A DNA stretch of 64,000 nt from an uncultured Caldisericota bacterium (GCA_903871855.1 CAIQIK010000038.1:1-64000); one strand, 5' to 3'; positions 7,259 to 64,000 are shown, counted from the stretch's first letter. The notes: generated from the letters alone by a model not told the origin. Numbers and translations: made by a program.

Positions 7259-7720
7259 ATGAAGATCATCATTGGTTCCGATCACGGCGGATTTCGCCTC
7301 AAGTCGTTCCTCATCCATGCATTGACGCTCAAGGGATACGAACTCGAGGACCTCGGCACCGACAGCGGGGACCACTCCGTCGACTATCCCGACTTCGCAG
7401 CCGCGGTGGCCCGCAAGGTCGTGGCAGATCCCACCGCGGTCGGTATCGTCATCTGCGGTACCGGCATCGGCGCCAGCATCGCGGCCAACAAGATCGCGGG
7501 CGTTCGCTGCGCGCTGGTTCACGACGGTTACACGGCACGGATGGCCAAGGAACACAACAACGCCAACGTGCTAGCGCTTGGTGGTCGGACGACGGCTGAG
7601 GAGATCGCGCTCGACTGCGTCGTCACCTGGCTGAACGCGACCTATCAGGGCGGGCGCCACCAACCGCGCCTCGACAAGATCGCCGCCCTCGAATGCCCTT
7701 CGGGCACAGCCGGCAGGTAG
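7259..7720 (+). CDS. rpiB: Ribose 5-phosphate isomerase B
   Basis: MKIIIGSDHGGFRLK, DLGTDS, VDYPDFA, GIVICGTGIGASIAANK, NANVLALGGRT; ATG at 7259 chosen over the longer ORF. Confidence 0.93.
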   Translation: MKIIIGSDHGGFRLKSFLIHALTLKGYELEDLGTDSGDHSVDYPDFAAAVARKVVADPTAVGIVICGTGIGASIAANKIAGVRCALVHDGYTARMAKEHNNANVLALGGRTTAEEIALDCVVTWLNATYQGGRHQPRLDKIAALECPSGTAGR

Positions 7721-7866
7721 CCACAGGAGTGGTACATCGTATATCGGCGAGATGAAAAGATGGATTCCCGCTTTTGCGGAGAAGCGCCCCTCGCATGGGA
7801 GAAAAGTGCTCGGGGGAATGACGGGCCTGTGCAGGGTCAGCTGGTGAGTAACCACAGGAGTGGTGT
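7721..7866. repeat. Degenerate copy of the interspersed repeat, flanked by direct repeats CCACAGGAGTGGT
   Basis: ccacaggagtggt at 7721 and 7852; between them ggattcccgcttttgcgg...gggaatgacgg and gggtcagctgg. Confidence 0.5.
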
Positions 7867-7882
7867 ATTCGGGATCTGACCA

Positions 7883-20318: not shown

Positions 20319-20367
20319 GTTTACCAGCTGATCCCAAAGGCGGCTAATAACCAGCTGTCCCCAAAGA
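20319..20367. repeat. Two degenerate terminal ends of the interspersed repeat family
   Basis: tttaccagctgatcccaaagg and taataaccagctgtccccaaag. Confidence 0.65.
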
Positions 20368-22589: not shown

Positions 22590-22770
22590 ATACCGGTTTC
22601 CGGACGATAATCAACGCCCTCCTGCCGTTCCGTCATCCCCCCGAGCCCTTTTGTTCAAGGCCCCCGAGTATGTTTGTCCCTCGCATCCTTTTGTCCAAGA
22701 TGCGAGGTGTTCTTCAATACGAGGGGCGTCTCTGAGGGGCGCTCTCGGCGCAGGCGGGAATCCGGCCATG
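22590..22770. repeat. Interspersed repeat, composite/rearranged copy
   Basis: ccgagcccttttgttcaagg, gagtatgtttgtcc...aatacgaggggcg, cggcgcaggcgggaatcc modules shared with the copies at 26.5 and 61.7 kb. Confidence 0.65.
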
Positions 22771-23988: not shown

Positions 23989-24685
23989 AACCTGCCTCTC
24001 GCCACGATTGATGGCGTATGCTGAGCTCGTGCGCGAGCGGTTCCCCCGGGTAATTGCAGGGACGACGGTCACAAACTTGGACGCGCTGGCCGACGATCTG
24101 TGCACGTCCCTTGACGATTTCCCTCTGACGACAGGGGTGCTGGGCTGCACGGTGTTTGAGCATGGTGAAGCCTACACCGCCATCCGGGAAGGTCTGCGGC
24201 GCGACGAGCCGATGCGTTACCGCTTCACCCTGGCGCACGAGCTCAGCGAGATCCTCCTGCGTCGCTACCTGGGTGCCCTGCCCGACCAGTGCTGGCGCGA
24301 GCGTGTCTGTGACGCCTTCGCGGCCGAGCTCCTGCTCCCGCATGCAATGGTCCTTGCCAGCGTTGGCGTTCTCATCGCGTCCCATGCTGGCGGTCCGGGG
24401 CCGTCCGATGCAACACTCGACGAGCTGGCGCGGCACTTGGCATACACCTACGAGGTGTCACTCACGTCCGCACGCATTTCGGTTGCCGAGTGCTCCAGCT
24501 GTCATTCCCGCAAAAGCGGGAATCCATTCCCTGATTCGTCATTCCCGCTCGGTTCGGTCATTCCCGCGCAGGCGGGAATCCACCTTGTCCTTTGTCCACG
24601 GTTTGCTGAGGCATGGGTTAACCCTGCGCAGCAAACCTACCACTTGGTACCTGTTTACCAGCTGACCAAAAACCAGCATTTGTAA
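23978..24685 (+). CDS. ImmA/IrrE-like metallopeptidase-family protein (motif HELSE)
   Basis: RYRFTLAHELSEILL..CWRERVCDAFAAELLLPHAMV; GTG start overlaps the Xre stop (alternative ATG 24011); C-terminal ~60 aa encoded by repeat DNA. Confidence 0.7.
   Translation: MAGKTCLSPRLMAYAELVRERFPRVIAGTTVTNLDALADDLCTSLDDFPLTTGVLGCTVFEHGEAYTAIREGLRRDEPMRYRFTLAHELSEILLRRYLGALPDQCWRERVCDAFAAELLLPHAMVLASVGVLIASHAGGPGPSDATLDELARHLAYTYEVSLTSARISVAECSSCHSRKSGNPFPDSSFPLGSVIPAQAGIHLVLCPRFAEAWVNPAQQTYHLVPVYQLTKNQHL
24500..24684. repeat. Interspersed repeat copy with two CATTCCCGC..GCGGGAATCC hairpins and one terminal end
   Basis: tcattcccgcaaaagcgggaatcc, tcattcccgcgcaggcgggaatcc, tttaccagctgacc. Confidence 0.8.
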
Positions 24686-26414: not shown

Positions 26415-26610
26415 TTGGGGGGGTCAGTTGGTAAAGAGACCCCCGCGTATGTTCCCCCAATACGAGGGGCGCTTCAAAGGGGCGTTGTTCGGAAATGGTA
26501 GGTTCACCGTTCTTCCAGCCAAGTTCTGTCATTCCCCCCTGAGCCCTTTTGTTCAAGGCAAGGGGTGCTTTCGGCGCAGGCGGGAATCCACTCCTTGTTC
26601 TTGTCTATCC
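26415..26610. repeat. Interspersed repeat copy (left end plus internal modules)
   Basis: ttgggggggtcagttggtaaagagac, cccccgcgtatgttcccccaatacgaggggcg, ttcggaaatggtaggttcaccg, ggcgcaggcgggaatccactc. Confidence 0.8.
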
Positions 26611-54963: not shown

Positions 54964-55104
54964 TTTGGGGTCAGCGGGTAAATCGATGTGGGTGGTACAT
55001 CCGTCAGGATGAAAGGATGGATTCCCGCCTGCGCGGGAATGACGGAACTTCGGCCTACAGATGACAAACTTGCCACTTCGGGCTGGAATGAGTGGTTGAC
55101 CCCA
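54964..55104. repeat. Interspersed repeat copy, ~141 bp
   Basis: tttggggtcagcgggtaaat ... ggatggattcccgcctgcgcgggaatgacgg ... gagtggttgacccca. Confidence 0.85.
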
Positions 55105-55136
55105 TATGAGTTGCAGGGGTAGGCGCGGCGCATACA

Positions 55137-57188
55137 ATGAACGCCATGAGAAAACGACTGTTCATGCTGCTCACTCTGCTTCTGCTCGTTGGCCTTGCCG
55201 TGGGAACGAGGTACGGGGATGTTGTGGTGTACACCGCCGACTGGGCGTTTGCGGCCAGCGTCCTCCTTGTTTTCGCCGCCTGGTGCTTCTGGTGGCTGCC
55301 CGACCACCCGCTGGTCTCGCTGTCGACCGACTGGACATCGCTGCTCCTGGTGGTCACCGTTATCGCTCTGACCCTGTTGTCCCCGTACCGCTATGGTGCA
55401 CAGGTCGAGGCAGCCAAGCTGGGCGCGGCTCTCTTGCTGGCTGTCATGGTCCTCAACCTGGTGCAGGAGCGTGGAGACCTGCAATTCTTCCTGAATGGCA
55501 TCCTCTTTACCGGTGTCGGCATGGCAGCCTTTTCCTTTGCTTGCTACATGGCGGCGATGTCACCCCTGTTTACCTTCACGCCGCTGTGGGCGCTCAACCA
55601 GCAGTACCACTTCGTCGTGAACGGCCAGCTGTGGGGCCTGTGGCAGTACCACAACTCCTTTGCCGGGTTCCTCGTCCTGTGCATCCTGCTGAGTGTCGGC
55701 ATGGCCACGGGGGACAAGCGCCGCGACCGGCGTTTTCTGTACGACGTCTGCACCGGTTTCCTGCTCATGGTGTTGTACCTCACGACATCACGCGGGGCGT
55801 TCCTCACAGGCATCATCGGCCTCATCGCGCTCATCCTGCTGACTCCACGGGGTTGGAGGAAACGCGTCGTCCTGCGCATGCTGATTGTCGGTACTGCCGC
55901 AGCAGGCTTCACCCTGCTCAACCGCGTGACCTGGGCGACGGAGGCCCTCAATGCAGAGAAGGGAGCGGCACTCGGCGCTTTTGTCACGGGTGCCGGTGAC
56001 CAATCCAACGACACGCGTGTTCACCTGATCGTGCTGGCGCTCCGTCTGTTCAGGGAGCATCCACTCGCGGGCACCGGTCTGGGGACGTTTGGACACGTCT
56101 GGACCGCGTTCGAGTGGGTGCCGGACGTGTCTCGCCGCATCGACCCCCACTCCGTCTTCTTCCGTTTCCTGGCCGAGACCGGCCTGCTGGGCACCATTCC
56201 CCTCTTCGCCTGGATCGCGCGGCGCGGCCTGCGCGGCCTCGACCGCGTGTTCGGCTCGCGCGAGGACATGGCGGTCACCGGCCTGTGGGCAGGTACCCTC
56301 GCGTACTTCCTCCACATGTGCATGGACGTCGACTACGTCTATGCGGTGGCGCCCGCCGTTCTCTTCGTCTGCCTGGCCCTGCTGTCGACCCGCACGGTGA
56401 CGTATGATCTGCTCAGCCGCGACGACCGCCGGCAGCTCATCCACCGCAGGCGCATCCCCTCTCTGATCGCGGGAGGGCTCGCGCTCCTGCTTGCGCTGGC
56501 GCCCATCCAGCGCGGGGTGGCATCGCTGTACGCACTGCGCCTGGGGGGATTAGAGACAGCCACGAAGGTTGAGCGTCTGACGGAAGCCACGGTCCTTGAC
56601 CCCTCCAACGACATGTACTGGAACCTGTTGGGGAGCACGTACGCCCATGCACTTGCGGGTGGTGTGGCGGGACCGGCGACCGACGCAGCACGCTTTGCGT
56701 TCGTCGAAGCCCAGAGGCTGACGCCCGAGGACTATCGGCCGTGGTGGAGCCAAGGCATGATGGAACTCAACTTGAAGAGCTCTCAGGCCCTGATCTGCCT
56801 GAAGGAGGCCGAGCGGCTGTATCCGACGCTGGCCGCCATCAAGGGATGGCTGGCGCTTGCCATGGTGTACGTGGGGGGTGACGTGACGGGCGCAGAGGCC
56901 AAGGCGGCCGAAGGGCTAGCCATCACGAAGGGAGAGCCGTATGCCGTCACGGCGCAGGCCTTCTGTGCACTCGCACGCGGAGAGACCGCGCATGCAAAGG
57001 AGCTGCTGACCAGCGTCGTCAAGCAAGGCTTCACCAACACCTTCGCCTACTACGGTCTGTCCCTGTGCTATCGTGCCGCGGGCGATACCGCGATGGAGCG
57101 CTCAGAGCTGGTTTACTCCAGCCGGATCAATCCTAACCTGGTAGAAGCCATGGCCCACCTGCGTTCTTTGGGGTCAGCTAGTAAATAG
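55137..57188 (+). CDS. O-antigen ligase family membrane protein with C-terminal TPR region
   Basis: Multiple TMs, TSRGAFLTGIIGLIALILL, LAGTGLGTFGHVWTAFEWVPDVSRRIDPHSVFFRFLAETGLLG, TPR-like C-terminus; stop codon lies inside the repeat end. Confidence 0.82.
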   Translation: MNAMRKRLFMLLTLLLLVGLAVGTRYGDVVVYTADWAFAASVLLVFAAWCFWWLPDHPLVSLSTDWTSLLLVVTVIALTLLSPYRYGAQVEAAKLGAALLLAVMVLNLVQERGDLQFFLNGILFTGVGMAAFSFACYMAAMSPLFTFTPLWALNQQYHFVVNGQLWGLWQYHNSFAGFLVLCILLSVGMATGDKRRDRRFLYDVCTGFLLMVLYLTTSRGAFLTGIIGLIALILLTPRGWRKRVVLRMLIVGTAAAGFTLLNRVTWATEALNAEKGAALGAFVTGAGDQSNDTRVHLIVLALRLFREHPLAGTGLGTFGHVWTAFEWVPDVSRRIDPHSVFFRFLAETGLLGTIPLFAWIARRGLRGLDRVFGSREDMAVTGLWAGTLAYFLHMCMDVDYVYAVAPAVLFVCLALLSTRTVTYDLLSRDDRRQLIHRRRIPSLIAGGLALLLALAPIQRGVASLYALRLGGLETATKVERLTEATVLDPSNDMYWNLLGSTYAHALAGGVAGPATDAARFAFVEAQRLTPEDYRPWWSQGMMELNLKSSQALICLKEAERLYPTLAAIKGWLALAMVYVGGDVTGAEAKAAEGLAITKGEPYAVTAQAFCALARGETAHAKELLTSVVKQGFTNTFAYYGLSLCYRAAGDTAMERSELVYSSRINPNLVEAMAHLRSLGSASK

Positions 57189-57310
57189 ACCACGCAGTAG
57201 TACATAGACACGGACGAAGGATGGATTCCCGCCTTCGCGGGAATGACAGAACTTCGGCGTAAGGACGGCGAACCTACTATTTTAGGCTGGAATTGCCAGC
57301 TGACCCCAAA
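57167..57310. repeat. Interspersed repeat copy, 144 bp with near-perfect terminal inverted repeats
   Basis: TTTGGGGTCAGCTAGTAAAT ... GGATTCCCGCCTTCGCGGGAATGACAG ... AATTGCCAGCTGACCCCAAA. Confidence 0.92.
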
Positions 57311-57945
57311 GCGGCGTCGAGGTCTAGGACGAACTGACGGAACGACGACGCGAAGAACGTTTTCACGTCGTCCCACCGGAGTGGCTGGCCCAGGTACTGC
57401 GGGTCAGGCTCCCCGTCCGCGTCATCGAACCAGGTGAGGCCCTTCCCGACTGCGACCGGCTCAATCAGCCCTGCACCGTACCGCTGGACGACCCGCGCCG
57501 CCACGGTGCGAAAAGGCATCTGCTGGAGGATGACGTACAGATCGACGAAATCTCGCCGGGCCGACTGTTGAGCAATAGCGACGAGCTTCATCGCGGCGAC
57601 ATCGAGAATACTTGCCACTGTCAGCCCCTCATACGGCTGGGGTAAGTCGACAAATGGATAGGGATACTGGAAGAAGGAGATCTTCACTTCCTCGATCACG
57701 ACTGAGAGGGTCTCTGGAGCGAGCTGCATGACCTCGGGGTTCAGATGCGCTTTGCGCAGCTCGCCCATCAGCAAGTCGGGAAGAACGTCCTCCTCTGAGA
57801 AGAAGTCAAGGTCAAACGACAGCCTGTGGCCAAGGAGCAACGCGAGAGAGGTCCCTCCCGCCAGGATGAAGTGGTGCCGCGCTACCGTGGGAGCAAGGCG
57901 AGGAATCAGCGCCAGGGCCCCTGGTGCCATCGCCTCAGGATGCAC
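57277..57945 (-). CDS. Nucleotidyltransferase AbiEii/AbiGii toxin family protein
   Basis: RHHFILAGGTSLALLLGHRLSFDLDFFSEED, DVAAMKLVAIAQQSARRDFVDLYVIL. Confidence 0.88.
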   Translation of the reverse strand: MHPEAMAPGALALIPRLAPTVARHHFILAGGTSLALLLGHRLSFDLDFFSEEDVLPDLLMGELRKAHLNPEVMQLAPETLSVVIEEVKISFFQYPYPFVDLPQPYEGLTVASILDVAAMKLVAIAQQSARRDFVDLYVILQQMPFRTVAARVVQRYGAGLIEPVAVGKGLTWFDDADGEPDPQYLGQPLRWDDVKTFFASSFRQFVLDLDAALGSAGNSSLK

Positions 57946-58321
57946 GGCTCACCTCAAACCAGGCGGACCAGAAGCGCCGTGAACGCGCCGACAGCCCTTT
58001 GTTTGATGCGAGAACTTGCAGGATGGTATTAGTCGGGTATTGACGCTGCAGCCACCAGACGGCGTGCAAACTTCCGGTTTCGAGGATCCGACTGATCACA
58101 TATGCTGCGTGCCGGTGCAGGTCGACGGCAGTGGGATCAGTGTCCCAGAAGTAGCGATAGAACGGAGGTGGGATACACCCCTCCTTCCTGAGAGCGGCAA
58201 CCTTGGCGGCAACATCAGCGCGCGCCATGGGTCCCAGGTATGTCTGAACCGTCCGAGTTCCACTGCGGCGAACCAGGTATGCGTACTGTCGATTGCCCAT
58301 CGTGCGGATCAGGATACTCAT
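57935..58321 (-). CDS. Uncharacterised partner protein of the AbiEii-like gene (putative antitoxin position)
   Basis: Overlapping upstream ORF in an operon with the AbiEii-like gene; NRQYAYLVRRSGTRTVQTYLGP. Confidence 0.55.
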   Translation of the reverse strand: MSILIRTMGNRQYAYLVRRSGTRTVQTYLGPMARADVAAKVAALRKEGCIPPPFYRYFWDTDPTAVDLHRHAAYVISRILETGSLHAVWWLQRQYPTNTILQVLASNKGLSARSRRFWSAWFEVSRAS

Positions 58322-58419
58322 GTCGGTGCTCCTTGGCAGATGGCGCCATGTTCACTCCATTTCCAGTTTACACTACATTTGTGTGTAAGCAACACGCCGA
58401 TTCCCGACCGACTTGATGT

Positions 58420-58452
58420 ACCGCTCGGAGCTAATTACCAGCTGACCCCAAA
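58420..58452. repeat. Single end of the interspersed repeat
   Basis: gctaattaccagctgaccccaaa. Confidence 0.8.
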
Positions 58453-58460
58453 GAGCTTGG

Positions 58461-60092
58461 TTACGGCACAAGTGAAGGGATGCGGTGCCTGATGCGGCCG
58501 AGGAGGATGCGCCAGCCGTCGATGCGCAGAAGCATGCTGGCAAGCATGTAACCGACGGCGGCCGCCCCGCACACCAACACTAGCCGAAGGGCAAGACCGA
58601 TGAAGCCGTTAGCCCCGTTGATCCATGTCGTGCAGGCGAGGGCGATACCGATGACCGGAATCACTGCCACCAGCGTCCTGGCGATCTCTGAGGCGAGTGG
58701 ATAGTGTGGTGTCGTGCGCACCTCGCTGCGGAAGAACTTGCGGACGAGCAGGATGTCCATGATCGTGCCGACGGTGACTGCAGCAGTCGTCGAAAGAGCG
58801 ATGCCCGCAGCCCCGAACCACATGCCAAACAGCCAGTCGGTGACTGCGTTGATCACGATCATCGCGACGCCGACGACCAGCGGCGTCCGCGTGTCCTTAA
58901 ACGAGTAGAACACGCGGTGAAAAACAGGAAACAGCGCCTGCCCCAGCAAACCCAGGCAGTACATCTGGACACACGCCGCCGTAAGCTGTGTCGCTCCTGT
59001 CGTGAAGGCTCCGCGCTGGAACAGGAGGCGCACGATGGGCTGGGCCAGCACGACCAGCCCGGCGATGCAGGGGACCATGATGTAGATCATGAGCGCTACC
59101 GTCTTCCTGATACGGTCCTCAAAAGTCGCAAGCAACGTCCCGTCGACCGCCATGGATGAGAACCACGGGAATACGGCCGTGACGATCGGCGTGGCCGCCA
59201 GCGCCAGGGGCAGGTTCCACAGCCGGTTGGAGTAGTCGAGGGCCGAGACGCTCCCCTGCGCAAGGTGCGACGCGAACCAGCGGTCGACGATCGTATTCAA
59301 GGACCCGCCTCCGCCGGAGATGATCAGCGGGACGAGCAGGGCGGCAAAGGCCCCGATGGTGCGCCATTCCACGCGGCGCAGGTCTAGGTGGCGAAAGAAA
59401 TCCCTGCGGTTTCGCAGGAACCAGAAGATCGGCGCGAAGCCGATGACCGACATGACGGTCAGGCCCAGCGCGTAGCTCTGGATGCCCAGCGGCGACGAGA
59501 AGAGGAGTAGGCATCCAACCAGCAGCACATTGCCGGCGACGTTGGACAGCAGGGGAACGAGAAACTGACCCTCGGCCTGCGACAGGCCGGTCACCAGGCC
59601 GGTCATCACGTTGAAGAACCCCATCGGCACCAGCAGGCGCGTCACCTTGACCGCCAGGTCGTAGCGGGCACCCGTGAAACTCGGCGCAAACAGATGGACC
59701 AGCTGAGGAGCGAAGATCAGGACGAACGCCGACACGACCAGGAACGCCATGCCCCAGACAACGGCCACCTGGTTGACCAGCTCGCGCGCATGCGCCGCGT
59801 CCTCCTTGCGGTGGGCGATGTACCACGGCACGATGAGCGTGCTGAGTCCTATCGAGATGATCCCGAGCAGGACACTGGGGACCATCATCCCGATGAGGAA
59901 GGCGTCCGTGACACCGGTCGCCCCCCAGTTGTGGGCCACAATGGCATCGCGTGCAAAGCCGATGAACTTGCTGAGCAGGGTGACAATGCTCAGGAAGACT
60001 GCCGCCTGTGCCACCGACTGCTTGCGCAGCAGCCGACCGCCACGCGACACCACACCCCCTGCTGCCCGCTGCCCACTATCCTCTGCCATCAT
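58461..60092 (-). CDS. MurJ-like flippase (second copy)
   Basis: RLLRKQSVAQAAVFLSIVTLLSKFIGFARDAIVAHNWGATGVTDAFLIGMMVPS; closely parallels the 24777 gene. Confidence 0.92.
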   Translation of the reverse strand: MMAEDSGQRAAGGVVSRGGRLLRKQSVAQAAVFLSIVTLLSKFIGFARDAIVAHNWGATGVTDAFLIGMMVPSVLLGIISIGLSTLIVPWYIAHRKEDAAHARELVNQVAVVWGMAFLVVSAFVLIFAPQLVHLFAPSFTGARYDLAVKVTRLLVPMGFFNVMTGLVTGLSQAEGQFLVPLLSNVAGNVLLVGCLLLFSSPLGIQSYALGLTVMSVIGFAPIFWFLRNRRDFFRHLDLRRVEWRTIGAFAALLVPLIISGGGGSLNTIVDRWFASHLAQGSVSALDYSNRLWNLPLALAATPIVTAVFPWFSSMAVDGTLLATFEDRIRKTVALMIYIMVPCIAGLVVLAQPIVRLLFQRGAFTTGATQLTAACVQMYCLGLLGQALFPVFHRVFYSFKDTRTPLVVGVAMIVINAVTDWLFGMWFGAAGIALSTTAAVTVGTIMDILLVRKFFRSEVRTTPHYPLASEIARTLVAVIPVIGIALACTTWINGANGFIGLALRLVLVCGAAAVGYMLASMLLRIDGWRILLGRIRHRIPSLVP

Positions 60093-60165
60093 CTCGCCTC
60101 CACGTGAGAAACCCTAGCACCATAGCACAGGCAACGGGGAGTGCAACCACCAAACCGTGGACGCC

Positions 60166-60340
60166 TTTGGGGTCAGCTGGCAAATAGACTGCAGTAGTAA
60201 GTTCACCGTCCTTCCAGCAGAATTCTGTCATTCCCGCGCAGGCGGGAATCCACTCTTGTACTTCGGCTATAGGCTTTGGGCTGCTCTCCGTCTCGGATAC
60301 TGAACTTACCATTCGGTGCCCATTTACCAGCTGGCCCCAA
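60166..60340. repeat. Interspersed repeat copy, ~175 bp
   Basis: tttggggtcagctggcaaatagac ... gtcattcccgcgcaggcgggaatccactc ... catttaccagctggccccaa. Confidence 0.9.
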
Positions 60341-61570
60341 TCATAGCATTGTCCAAGGAACCGCAACGATACGGCGCGTAAGGTTCTTGATGGAAAACCC
60401 TCCATAGACGACGATGCCGCTGATACAGGATGGATCATTGTCCAGCAACCATTGAATATGGGTAGCGTCGTTCATGGTCACGTCATCGCTCATCTTGGCT
60501 TCAACGGCAACGCTCTTGCCGCCACGTTCCAGAACGAAGTCCACTTCGTGCAGCTTACTTGTTCGACGAGTGCGCACGAAGTGCATACCCATGTCCCAGA
60601 GATCGCACAGCGTCTGCAGTGTCATAAAGACCATATCCTCGAAGAGATGCCCACAGAATATATCATCAAGTGCTGCGGGGGTCTTGAGTCCAAGGAGCGA
60701 ACAGATGAGCCCTGTGTCACATGGATACGGCTTCCATTGCCGCCGGACCGAGGTCGTGCTCGTCAGGGGTGCCGGAGGAAGAAGGGAGAGAAGGTATGCT
60801 TTCTGGATCGCATCAATGTACCTCGAGACCGTCCTCTCGTTGACATTCGTGTCGTCGGCAATCTTCCTGTACTCCATGAGCGATCCCGTCGTCATGGCAA
60901 CGCGACGCATGACCGCACGATAATCGAAGAGAGAGGTCGTCGGTGAGATGTCCGGCAGGTCGCGTTCAAGATAAGTCGTCACGTAGCTTTGCCAGAAGAC
61001 CGCCGCCTGTTCGGGTTCCGCATCCCTGATGCCTGGTAGGAACCCTCTGAACAGAATGGGGCGAAGGCCCAGCACTGGCACTGGCGATGGCGCTGAACCA
61101 CCCGCCGGAAGTTGCGTGTCAAACATGTTCAGAAGCCAGAGGGGTTCCGGCTGCTGAAGCCACTCGGTCCAGAGGGGCTGACGCAGAACATGGTAGGCGG
61201 CACGCCCCGCCAAGGAATCCTGGATTCGCCTCAGGAGCAGGAAATTGGCGGATCCGCTCAGCACGAACCGACGTGTCTTGTCCTTGCGAAGGGCTTCCTT
61301 GGCAGCCAGAAACAGGTCTGGTTCCCGATGAGCTTCGTCAATGATCAACCTGTCTGCCCTGTCCACAAATACTGCTGGGTTCCTGTGTGCTCTCTCGCGG
61401 GAATCCGGATCATCGAGACTCGTGTAGGAGTAGCCGCTGAACATCGGTTCATTGGCAAGGAGTGTGCTCTTCCCTGTCTGCCGCGCTCCGGTGAGTACGG
61501 TGATAGGGAGTATGGTCTCTGAAAGCTGCAATCGATGCATTAGCCAACGTTCTCTGTACATTGCCGTCAC
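60341..61570 (-). CDS. ATP-binding protein, AAA/DUF4143 family
   Basis: ITVLTGARQTGKSTLLANEP Walker A, ADRLIIDEAHREPDLFLAAKEALR, FVLSGSANFLLLRRIQDSLAGRAA, GKSVAVEAKMSDDV. Confidence 0.88.
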   Translation of the reverse strand: MTAMYRERWLMHRLQLSETILPITVLTGARQTGKSTLLANEPMFSGYSYTSLDDPDSRERAHRNPAVFVDRADRLIIDEAHREPDLFLAAKEALRKDKTRRFVLSGSANFLLLRRIQDSLAGRAAYHVLRQPLWTEWLQQPEPLWLLNMFDTQLPAGGSAPSPVPVLGLRPILFRGFLPGIRDAEPEQAAVFWQSYVTTYLERDLPDISPTTSLFDYRAVMRRVAMTTGSLMEYRKIADDTNVNERTVSRYIDAIQKAYLLSLLPPAPLTSTTSVRRQWKPYPCDTGLICSLLGLKTPAALDDIFCGHLFEDMVFMTLQTLCDLWDMGMHFVRTRRTSKLHEVDFVLERGGKSVAVEAKMSDDVTMNDATHIQWLLDNDPSCISGIVVYGGFSIKNLTRRIVAVPWTML

Positions 61571-61571
61571 C

Positions 61572-61608
61572 TCATGTCAATATTGTCGTCATGTCATGTC
61601 TGCATTGT
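61572..61608. repeat. Imperfect direct repeat upstream of the AAA/DUF4143 gene
   Basis: tcatgtcaatattgt (61572) and tcatgtctgcattgt (61594), period 22. Confidence 0.5.
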
Positions 61609-61656
61609 ACATGGACCCGTAGACAATACAATATAGGCCAGCATCGCGGCAACTCT

Positions 61657-61878
61657 TTGGGGTCAGCTGGTAAAGAGACCCCCGAGCATGTTTGTCCAAT
61701 ACGAGGGGCGTAGTTCGGAAATGGTAAGTTCGCCGTCGTTCCGCCAACGGAGACCTCTGCGCTGTGGGTGCTCTCCTAGGAAACGATAGTCTGAGACATC
61801 TCCCGAGATGCCCCGCGACAGCAAGCCCAGGGCCAGACGAACTTACCACTTTGGCCGCTAATTACCAGCTGACCCCAA
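61657..61878. repeat. Interspersed repeat copy, ~222 bp
   Basis: tttggggtcagctggtaaagagac ... cccccgagcatgtttgtccaatacgaggggcg ... ttcggaaatggtaagttcgccg ... gaacttaccac ... taattaccagctgaccccaa. Confidence 0.9.
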
Positions 61879-63111
61879 TAGCTCAAAGGTCTGCAGTGGT
61901 CGGTATTCCACCTGAACAGAACCAACGGTTCCAGCCCGTGTGACGCCGCGTGTCAGAACGACAGCCCGGGGCGGCTTGTACTGCTCGAGAAACGAGGTAA
62001 ACCCGTGTCCAGGAGCCGGGTCGCCGCTCCACTTGACCTCCACCGGCAGCAAGTCACCGTCAGCAACAACGAAGTCGACCTCGGCTCCAGACGTCTTGCG
62101 CCAGTAGTGCAGTCGCTCGCCCTGTCGGAGGGTACGACTCAGCGCGAGGAACGCATAGTTCTCGGCAATGGCGCCGGCATCGCCTCGTCGTTCGATGGGC
62201 AGGAAGCTGCCACGAGCCCAATTGAGCAGCCCGGTGTCACCGAAGTACAGCTTCGGCGTCCGCTTGACCTCGGACCGAACGTTGCGCGCCAGCGGCGGCA
62301 CCAGGTGCACCAGGTACAGCTGTTGCAGGATCTGGAGGTAGCGCCCCAGCGTCTTGTCCGAGACACCGATGTCCGACGCAATCTCACGGACGTTCACCAT
62401 CGAGCCGGCACTCGCTGACACGGCATGAATGAACCGTTCGAACGCAGCATCATCGCCAATCCTTGTCAGCGCGTCGACGTCGCGCCGTGCGTAGACACGG
62501 ATGAGGTCGCCAAGGTACTGCATCTTCATCTCGGCCGTTTCCAGCAGCGCCACGCGGGGGTACCCACCGTACTGGAGATACTCGCTGAACAGACGGTCGA
62601 CCTGTGGCAGCACGTCTTCCTGCGCTGTCTTCACGCCCGCCAGCGACCCATAACCCCTGAAGTCAAGATACTCCCGAAAGGACAGGACCGACAGCTCAAA
62701 CATCACGATGCGCCCGACCAGCTCGTCACTGAACCCGCGGACAATCGCCAGCGATGACGACCCCGAGACAACCAATTTGAGGCGTGGGTGATAGTCGACG
62801 CACAGCTTAATGAACCGCGGGAAGTCCGGCAGATGCTGGATCTCGTCGATGAAGACCGTCCCTCCGCCCGTAACCTGTTCCAGCGCGTCAGGCCCAGCCA
62901 GGGCGATGTCGCGATCCTCGGGAACCTCCATGTCAAGAACATGCGCCGGGCCCGACAACTGCCGTCCCAGCAGGTACATCAGGGAGGTCTTGCCTGTCCG
63001 GCGGCCACCGCTGATTACGATCGCTTCGTGCTCCTTAAGCCATGGCGTGATGCGAGGCGCTATGTCGCGCGAACGCAGCTGTAGTTCACCAAGCTCATCG
63101 AGAGATTTCAT
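61858..63111 (-). CDS. ATP-binding protein, AAA/DUF4143 family (second, divergent)
   Basis: EAIVISGGRRTGKTSLMYLLGRQL, GGTVFIDEIQHLPDFPRFIKL, LKLVVSGSSSLAIVRGFSDELVGRI, EVDFVVADGDLLPVEVKWSGDP. Confidence 0.9.
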   Translation of the reverse strand: MKSLDELGELQLRSRDIAPRITPWLKEHEAIVISGGRRTGKTSLMYLLGRQLSGPAHVLDMEVPEDRDIALAGPDALEQVTGGGTVFIDEIQHLPDFPRFIKLCVDYHPRLKLVVSGSSSLAIVRGFSDELVGRIVMFELSVLSFREYLDFRGYGSLAGVKTAQEDVLPQVDRLFSEYLQYGGYPRVALLETAEMKMQYLGDLIRVYARRDVDALTRIGDDAAFERFIHAVSASAGSMVNVREIASDIGVSDKTLGRYLQILQQLYLVHLVPPLARNVRSEVKRTPKLYFGDTGLLNWARGSFLPIERRGDAGAIAENYAFLALSRTLRQGERLHYWRKTSGAEVDFVVADGDLLPVEVKWSGDPAPGHGFTSFLEQYKPPRAVVLTRGVTRAGTVGSVQVEYRPLQTFELLGSAGN

Positions 63112-63130
63112 ACTCTTATCGTATCCATCC

Positions 63131-63189
63131 TCCGCAACAAGTCAATATTTGCGGAGTCGTTGTCCGCAATGAGTCAATATTTGCGGAGT
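63131..63189. repeat. Two 27-bp direct repeats, each an interrupted palindrome, period 32
   Basis: tccgcaacaagtcaatatttgcggagt (63131) and tccgcaatgagtcaatatttgcggagt (63163). Confidence 0.9.
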
Positions 63190-63234
63190 AGCCTTGTGCC
63201 AAATATGACTCGCGTCGCCATCCACCGCCTGATC

Positions 63235-63350
63235 TGTTCTTCCCGCGCAGGCGGGAATCCAGTCTTATCCTTGCGACGGACTATAGACGGACAGCTCTCC
63301 ATCTCAGGTGCTGAACTTACCATTCGGTGCCCATTTGCCCGTTGGCCTGT
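63235..63350. repeat. Interspersed repeat copy (partial)
   Basis: cttcccgcgcaggcgggaatccagtcttatcc ... gctctccatctcaggtgctgaacttaccattcggtgcccattt, parallel to the copy at 60230-60340. Confidence 0.85.
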
Positions 63351-63360
63351 ACCACCCGTA

Positions 63361-64000
63361 CTAGCGTGCTCCCCTCCTGCGCAAGACGGCGGGGATAGTC
63401 GCCGCCAGGATGCGTATGTCCAGCCACAAGCTCCAGTGCGTGATATAGTCCATGTCCAGCCTCACGCGCTCCGCGTAGTCCAAGTCGCTGCGCCCGCTGA
63501 CCTGCCACAGCCCCGTGAGCCCAGGCCGAACGCGCAGGATGACAGCAGCAACGGGGCCATACCTGGCGATCTCGTCTGCGACGATGGGACGGGGTCCCAC
63601 CAGCGAGAGGTCCCCCGCGAGGACGTTGAACAGCTGTGGCAGTTCGTCCAGCGATGTCCGACGCAACCAGCGTCCCAGCAGTGTTATCCGCGGGTCGTCT
63701 CGCAGTTTGTACGTCGCTTCGTACTCAACGCGCAAGAAGGGATCGTCCGCCAGCATGTCTTGCAGACGCGCCTCGGCGTCCACGACCATTGAGCGGAACT
63801 TGTAGACTCGGATGGGCTTGCCGCCCTCACCCAGACGCTGGTGCCCAAACAAGACGGGCCCGCGGGATGTGAGCTTCACCAGCACAGCGAGGATAAGCAG
63901 GAGCGGCGAGAGGATCACGACGCCAGCGCTCGCTAGCAGGACATCCATGAGGCGTTTGATACGGGCACCCACACCGACCACAAGGAGGTCCCGTACCCTG
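63361..64000 (-). CDS. Sugar transferase (WbaP/WcaJ-type catalytic domain), probably truncated by the window edge
   Basis: RIKRLMDVLLASAGVVILSPLLLILAVLVKLTSRGPVLFGHQRLGEGGKPIRVYKFRSM, LRRTSLDELPQLFNVLAGDLSLVGPRPI, RPGLTGLWQVSGRSD; frame appears open to the window end. Confidence 0.88.
   Translation of the reverse strand, partial: RVRDLLVVGVGARIKRLMDVLLASAGVVILSPLLLILAVLVKLTSRGPVLFGHQRLGEGGKPIRVYKFRSMVVDAEARLQDMLADDPFLRVEYEATYKLRDDPRITLLGRWLRRTSLDELPQLFNVLAGDLSLVGPRPIVADEIARYGPVAAVILRVRPGLTGLWQVSGRSDLDYAERVRLDMDYITHWSLWLDIRILAATIPAVLRRRGAR

Follow-up and report, generated by a model that had tools for sequence, protein, structure and literature searches.

The window analysed here, a stretch of 64,000 nucleotides from an uncultured Caldisericota bacterium, contains a dispersed repeat, copies of which lie next to an AbiEii toxin-like gene and two AAA/DUF4143 ATPase genes (Table 1). 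The AbiEii-like gene has its stop codon inside one inverted pair of repeat ends, and the DUF6922 gene next to it is its putative partner. In the congener G008, the AbiEii/DUF6922 segment (L159 7893-8510) is inverted relative to the window, lies between TIR ends and adjoins a second copy of the tail of an O-antigen-ligase gene. Further to the right, the segment 60163-63361 forms a block of 3.2 kb consisting of a pair, an AAA/DUF4143 gene, a second pair, a second AAA/DUF4143 gene and a half pair. The genome of origin (G000) is available as an assembly of 1.84 Mb in 50 contigs, 94.8 % complete, and is one of the 15 genomes of the genus Candidatus Cryosericum used for comparison. When a genome collection was scanned with the MurJ-like protein of the window, records of this genus (C. 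septentrionale, C. odellii and C. hinesii) and one MAG were obtained.

Table 1 Repeat ends and neighbouring genes in the window (TIR, terminal inverted repeat; dot, no strand)
Feature	Position	Strand	Remarks
Degenerate old ends with core hairpin	7705..7871	.	Congeners: intact solo ends at the same place
Two tandem right TIR ends	20321..20365	-	Spaced 27 bp
Core hairpins and right TIR end (24655-24672)	24499..24672	.	Right half
Left TIR end, CCCC module and core hairpin	26417..26608	.	Hotspot: congeners hold different contents
Degenerate inverted pair of TIR ends with core hairpin	54964..55104	.	141 bp; fold z -2.1
Complete inverted pair	57167..57310	.	144 bp; fold z -6.6
AbiEii nucleotidyltransferase-toxin-like gene	57277..57945	-	Pfam AbiEii, E 2.8e-16
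DUF6922 gene	57935..58321	-	Pfam DUF6922, E 1.4e-13
Solo TIR end, exact match	58435..58452	-	Far side of AbiEii/DUF6922 genes
Complete inverted pair	60166..60341	.	175-176 bp; fold z -3.4; left border of 3.2-kb block
AAA_14/DUF4143 ATPase gene 1	60341..61570	-	
Complete inverted pair, CCCC-hairpin module inside	61656..61879	.	222-224 bp; fold z -5.4
AAA_14/DUF4143 ATPase gene 2	61858..63111	-	Stop codon in TIR end
Right half of degenerate pair	63233..63347	.	81 % to 60166-60341 copy, same orientation; right border of 3.2-kb block

In the preliminary description of this DNA about eleven copies of the repeat were recognised. The window does contain 11 matches to the 18-mer TTTGGGGTCAGCTGGTAA with at most three mismatches, where 100 shuffles gave 0.03 on average, but the site near 22.6 kb is not a copy: it lacks a TTTGGGG end and consists solely of CCCC-hairpin modules and one half of a core hairpin. 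The inverted-repeat layout given for three complete copies (57167-57310, 60166-60341 and 61656-61879) was found as described, and the unit lengths of 141, 144, 175 and 222 bp agree with those measured (Table 1). The stretch 54964-55104 is a pair as well, albeit a degenerate one, whereas other copies are a solo end (58435-58452), a tandem (20321-20365) and right halves (63233-63347 and 24499-24672). Additional copies elsewhere, on which that description had made its reading depend, are present: the own genome carries 16 ends at two mismatches or fewer, 11 of them on the contig of the window, and the end occurs in 14 of the 15 Candidatus Cryosericum genomes and in 0 of 86 others, while a reversed control pattern gave no match in the same genome scan. 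Exact 18-mers are numerous and clustered in G010, a genome that still holds the transposase described below, and in the genus genomes the ends are clustered in few contigs. An Rfam scan of the window returned rRNAs only and no match for the repeat. A 17-mer was encountered on two viral contigs within a long phage structural gene; the viral matches are therefore due to chance, and a phage origin was rejected.

Since solitary, tandem and inverted single ends are all found, the unit is the end of about 40 nt and not a MITE of fixed layout. Among the 102 copies collected, WTAG, 5-9 variable bases and RTGGTA come after the conserved stretch TGGGGTCAGCTGGTAA, which gives ~40 nt in total, and GGGGTCAG, which fits the TIR motif GGGGWSAS, is near-invariant. 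The consensus of the inverted ends, again of ~40 nt, is (Y)CTTTGGGGTCAGCTGGTAAWTAG-N(5-9)-RTGGTA(C/A)(A/G)TT; the A-type end is also written TTTGGGGTCAGCTGGTAAATAGNNNNNAGTGGTACATT. CTT stands before the end in most copies, CGATA (GATA) in a second variant. Distinct left and right ends are not claimed: both CTT- and GATA-preceded ends exist, and CTT/CTT combinations are about as common as CTT/other among 16 listed pairs, some of which are listed twice. A single end folds no better than shuffled DNA (z 1.05 to -0.57). The inverted pairs fold as single DNA strands into one long stem (z -2.1 to -8.5), as had been proposed for the whole unit and as is seen for all four pairs of the window (Table 1). 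No GT[AG]G tetranucleotide is present at the hairpin foot in the end units. Folding of the inverted pairs but not of the single unit sets the repeat apart from GTAG REPs and fits TIRs.

The central hairpin noted earlier is indeed present in the pairs but belongs to a separate and wider family, CATTCCCGC..GCGGGAATCC; with the 175-bp copy as a query 57 genome matches were obtained, most of them to this core only. The CATTCCCGC and CCCC hairpins inside the pairs are other repeat families, nested within them. A GTCATTCCCGC..GCGGGAATCCA hairpin is an independent repeat with about 50 copies in the own genome (e.g. window 24499-24585). Another module, a hairpin of ~30-37 nt with the structure CCCCCGAG-stem-loop-stem'-CGAGGGGYGCTTC and interchangeable stems (GCAT/ATGC, GTAT/ATAC, GCCTT/AAGGC or GGAT/ATCC), is inserted into the CATTCCCGC hairpin and repeatedly nested inside itself (window 22637-22741, 26440-26589 and 61675-61710; L012 1240-1460; L164 12000-12300), and has the appearance of a very small mobile or structured element in its own right. 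At L163 ~2800-2832, L109 ~3440, L110 ~7640 and L064, a shortened end (TTTGGGG or TTTGGGGTC) was observed immediately upstream of a full copy. In three such cases the preceding 3-6 flanking bases are duplicated too, e.g. (GGGCCCTTTGGGGTC)x2; the shortened copies could mark slippage or the cleavage point.

Mobilisation by a trans-acting transposase, possibly of the REP-associated Y1 type, had been suggested, and a transposase gene with matching ends was sought. The three Y1 genes above the Pfam cut-off in the own genome are not flanked by these ends and were rejected as partners, as their flanks bear others (TGTAACATTCTCG; TTGTACCTGGTACC; TTAGGGTCAAGCGTTACC). A Y1 gene located between inverted copies of the end was found in three congeners (G006:C234 6894-7976, G014:C254 1517-2595 and G010:C133 2194-3401/3440). 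An A-type end lies within 1.5 kb of three of the 24 Y1 genes listed for the genus and of 0 of the 21 others listed; by our own arithmetic, three labels would land randomly on those three of the 24 genes with a chance of 1 in 2024. A protein search of the phylum gave exactly three members of this A family at 77 % identity or more, those of G006, G010 and G014. Identity to the G014 protein is 79 % for G010 and 77 % for G006, with the next family at 56-59 %. The A-family transposase, absent from the own assembly, is thus kept in 3 of the 15 genus genomes, or 3 of the 14 that bear ends, and the own-genome copies are probably relics or else rely on a partner in the unassembled ~5 %. In G010 and G006 the TIR end contributes the stop or last codons of the transposase gene itself, as it does for adjoining genes at 57188, 57277 and 61858 in the window and at the 7.7-kb site.

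The A-family protein is an HUH/Y1 transposase of 284-293 aa with a C-terminal helix-turn-helix and the motifs NHYH, HVFQ (FQ), Y-IVR-NP and WSS (SS motif). It matches Pfam Y1_Tnp and, weakly at its C-terminus, HTH_38 (21.3 bits vs a curated cut-off of 27); helix-turn-helix chains in the PDB match profile positions about 229-270. The best PDB match of the AlphaFold model (mean pLDDT 72) is RAYT 4er8 (E 5.7e-8), followed by ISDra2 and then IS608. TIRYT (TIR-associated tyrosine transposase) genes with TIRs that share GGGGWSAS, the repeats being single, dimeric or grouped, were surveyed in 2013 (Di Nocera et al., PMC3733652), and most TIRYTs were placed in subclass 2.1 in a 2018 survey (Quentin et al., PMC6006769). 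The suggested mobilisation in trans by a Y1-type transposase is supported, the partner of the window repeats being a TIRYT of subclass 2.1 and not a canonical GTAG-REP RAYT.

Each of the other Y1 families of the genus is bracketed by its own motif and not by the A-type end, namely TTAGGGTCAAGCGTTACC / GGTAACGCTTGACCCC for family B (its end is also written TTTAGGGTCAAGCGTTACC), TGTAACATTCTCGGGACGGTTCC for C, TTGTACCAGGTACAA for D and TGTTACAACAACTACGGCTGTCCCC for E. The A and B proteins are the most similar, and both have GGGGTCA-like ends. Families C and D each keep one conserved locus in several Cryosericum species, which suggests that they are domesticated, vertically inherited transposases; C adjoins one and the same peptidase-like gene, and D lies between MBL-fold-like and uvrB-like genes (C/D loci L017, L112, L116, L120, L122 and L018, L123-L127).

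Precise presence or absence of the repeat at an orthologous site was observed in the own genome, in which a ~345-bp array ending in TTACCAGCTGACCCCATA lies (G000:C42) where the DNA of G001, G008 and G013 runs on without interruption; eight congeners in total have the empty site. Only one side of this composite array shows a recognisable end. A target-site duplication, for which a search had been recommended, was not found at this one clean empty site (none of at least 3 bp), the other sites being too rearranged to judge. The pair at 57167-57310 has an orthologous pair in G011, and in G010 a transposase-bearing element occupies the orthologous site; the site of the solo end at 58435..58452 is likewise occupied by a transposase element in G006. 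Near the 57-kb site of G006, a 131-bp unit was identified as the 3' tip of the transposase element; it comprises an internal end, which overlaps the final codons, then the untranslated 3' stretch and finally the outer end. The insert with its empty sites, the 131-bp tip and the G010 element thus place parent, derivative, relic and empty site all within one genus.

Very probably, therefore, the repeats belong to a TIRtron of ~1.1 kb that encodes a single-strand DNA (HUH/Y1) TIRYT transposase, and represent its non-autonomous copies and its solo ends; the repeat, the class of its partner and its dispersal are well supported. The transposase would recognise the ends as single-stranded DNA and cleave next to GGGGTCA, its C-terminal helix-turn-helix reading CTGGTAA ... 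GTGGTA, the part by which the end differs between families. Inverted pairs would be moved or copied in trans during replication, without target duplication.

A variant of this explanation, the confidence in which overlaps with that in the explanation itself, is that the transposase only seeded the family long ago and that present dispersal and cargo shuffling are mainly a consequence of homologous recombination between old repeats. This is a serious possibility, if somewhat short of a probable one. Retention of the transposase in so few genomes agrees with it, as do a chimeric end in G010, in which TTTGGGGTCAGCTGG is fused to ACAG, and the solo end at 7.7 kb, which is vertically kept in several species at the 3' end of the same gene. 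The clustering of ends in few contigs and the inversion of G008 segments between ends show that recombination also shapes the pattern. The G000:C42 insert, on the other hand, looks like a gain in one lineage when set against the eight empty sites, and the clustered exact 18-mers in G010 suggest fairly recent copying.

Canonical REPIN/RAYT systems are built alike, from singlets, tandems and inverted doublets, the spacers of which vary; if the repeats were of this kind, each ~40-nt end would be a GTAG-type REP hairpin and the pairs would be REPINs copied by a group 2/3 RAYT. The A-family transposase is a relative of RAYTs, and REPs in inverted pairs form hairpins (PMC8049555). With the GT[AG]G foot absent, single ends that fold no better than shuffles and a protein that bears the signature of subclass 2.1, near the genes of which no REP-like repeats were found in the 2018 survey (PMC6006769), this origin is improbable. 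It is very improbable that the repeats are not mobile DNA at all but transcription terminators or RNA-structured elements selected at the 3' ends of genes. Many ends do lie just downstream of stop codons or supply them (ORFs ending at 57188, 61858 and 57277), and the folded pairs could stop transcription; yet solo ends are unstructured, Rfam gives no match, presence varies at orthologous sites and the repeats match the ends of the transposase element exactly. A terminator function may be a secondary role. A classic MITE of a DDE insertion sequence, for which the 18-bp terminal inverted repeats and the size of 140-220 bp would be fitting, is hardly credible at all given that the gene between the ends is of the HUH/Y1 type, that no target duplication of at least 3 bp is seen at the clean empty site and that solo ends are common.

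A new observation is the strong enrichment of the ends next to AbiE toxin-antitoxin and AAA/DUF4143 genes, shared blocks of which stop at ends. In the genus, an end lies within 1.5 kb of 12 of 47 AbiEii genes (1.2 expected) and of 10 of 30 DUF4143 genes (0.8 expected) when the ends are assumed to be spread evenly, with Poisson figures that ignore genome relatedness and clustering. Upon exclusion of five hot contigs, 10 of 45 AbiEii genes remain (1.1 expected), and DUF4143 falls to 2 of 21 (0.5 expected). PIN-domain genes, used as a control cargo, gave 6 matches, too few for comparison. The AbiE operons of G011 and G013 are located at different sites and have a common block that begins at an end in both. 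The G010 site that is orthologous to 26.4 kb of the window contains AAA gene 1 together with the ends that border it, and AAA gene 2 is present at that same site in G006 with 92.6 % identity over 1330 bp, the syntenic DNA being ~84 % identical. The entire 60163-63361 block is absent from G008 and G001, in which the same neighbours lie ~26 bp apart. A simple recent insertion of this block was rejected, as an end lies almost at this point in the more diverged G011, too; loss of the block in G008 and G001 is thus possible. These data are suggestive of cargo movement. That the TIRYT mobilises, or once mobilised, AbiE pairs and AAA/DUF4143 genes between ends, and thereby moves cassettes across sites and species, is nevertheless rather doubtful, as the same pattern could result from neutral or permissive hotspots that are shared, or from recombination between repeats.

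The family resembles the TIRYT/TIRtron systems (PMC3733652) in having a Y1 gene between terminal inverted repeats with GGGGWSAS (here GGGGTCAG), repeats dispersed as singles, dimers and groups, and several TIRYT genes in the same genome, which have individual TIRs and of which only some are amplified. It differs in its occurrence in a new genus, in the absence of the partner gene from most genomes while the ends persist, in one unit being traced to the 3' tip of the transposase element and in the association with AbiE and AAA/DUF4143 genes. NHYH, FQ, Y---NP and SS motifs, a C-terminal helix-turn-helix, a size of 240-300 aa and a low copy number are shared with TnpAY1 of subclass 2.1 (PMC6006769; Bertels group 1), but, unlike the genes of that survey, the Cryosericum gene is clearly linked to a dispersed repeat family. 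As in REPIN/RAYT systems (Bertels and Rainey 2011, PMC3116915), there are non-autonomous inverted pairs that would depend on a trans-acting Y1 protein and that persist after gene loss, whereas GTAG is absent, the single unit is non-palindromic, the ends are longer (~40 nt) and the RAYT group is another one. With IS200/IS605 elements the A-family protein would share the HUH/Y1 catalytic fold, to judge from the model matches to ISDra2 and IS608; it has Y-IVR-NP and 284-293 aa instead of the Y---Q and short protein of subclass 1.1, and the ends are inverted rather than subterminal hairpins, with no tnpB seen.

In conclusion, the repeat belongs to a kind already known from bacteria, here in a new lineage, and is unusual because its ends often border toxin-antitoxin and ATPase genes. 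It clearly links a protein of subclass 2.1 (TIRYT), for which the largest survey had found no repeats, to a dispersed repeat that has been amplified. With parents, derivatives, relics and empty sites all present among the 15 genomes of a single genus, one protein and one 18-mer would allow a direct test of the idea that TIRYTs spread repeats. If the association with cargo holds, it would represent a single-strand transposon route for the spread of toxin-antitoxin and ATPase genes.
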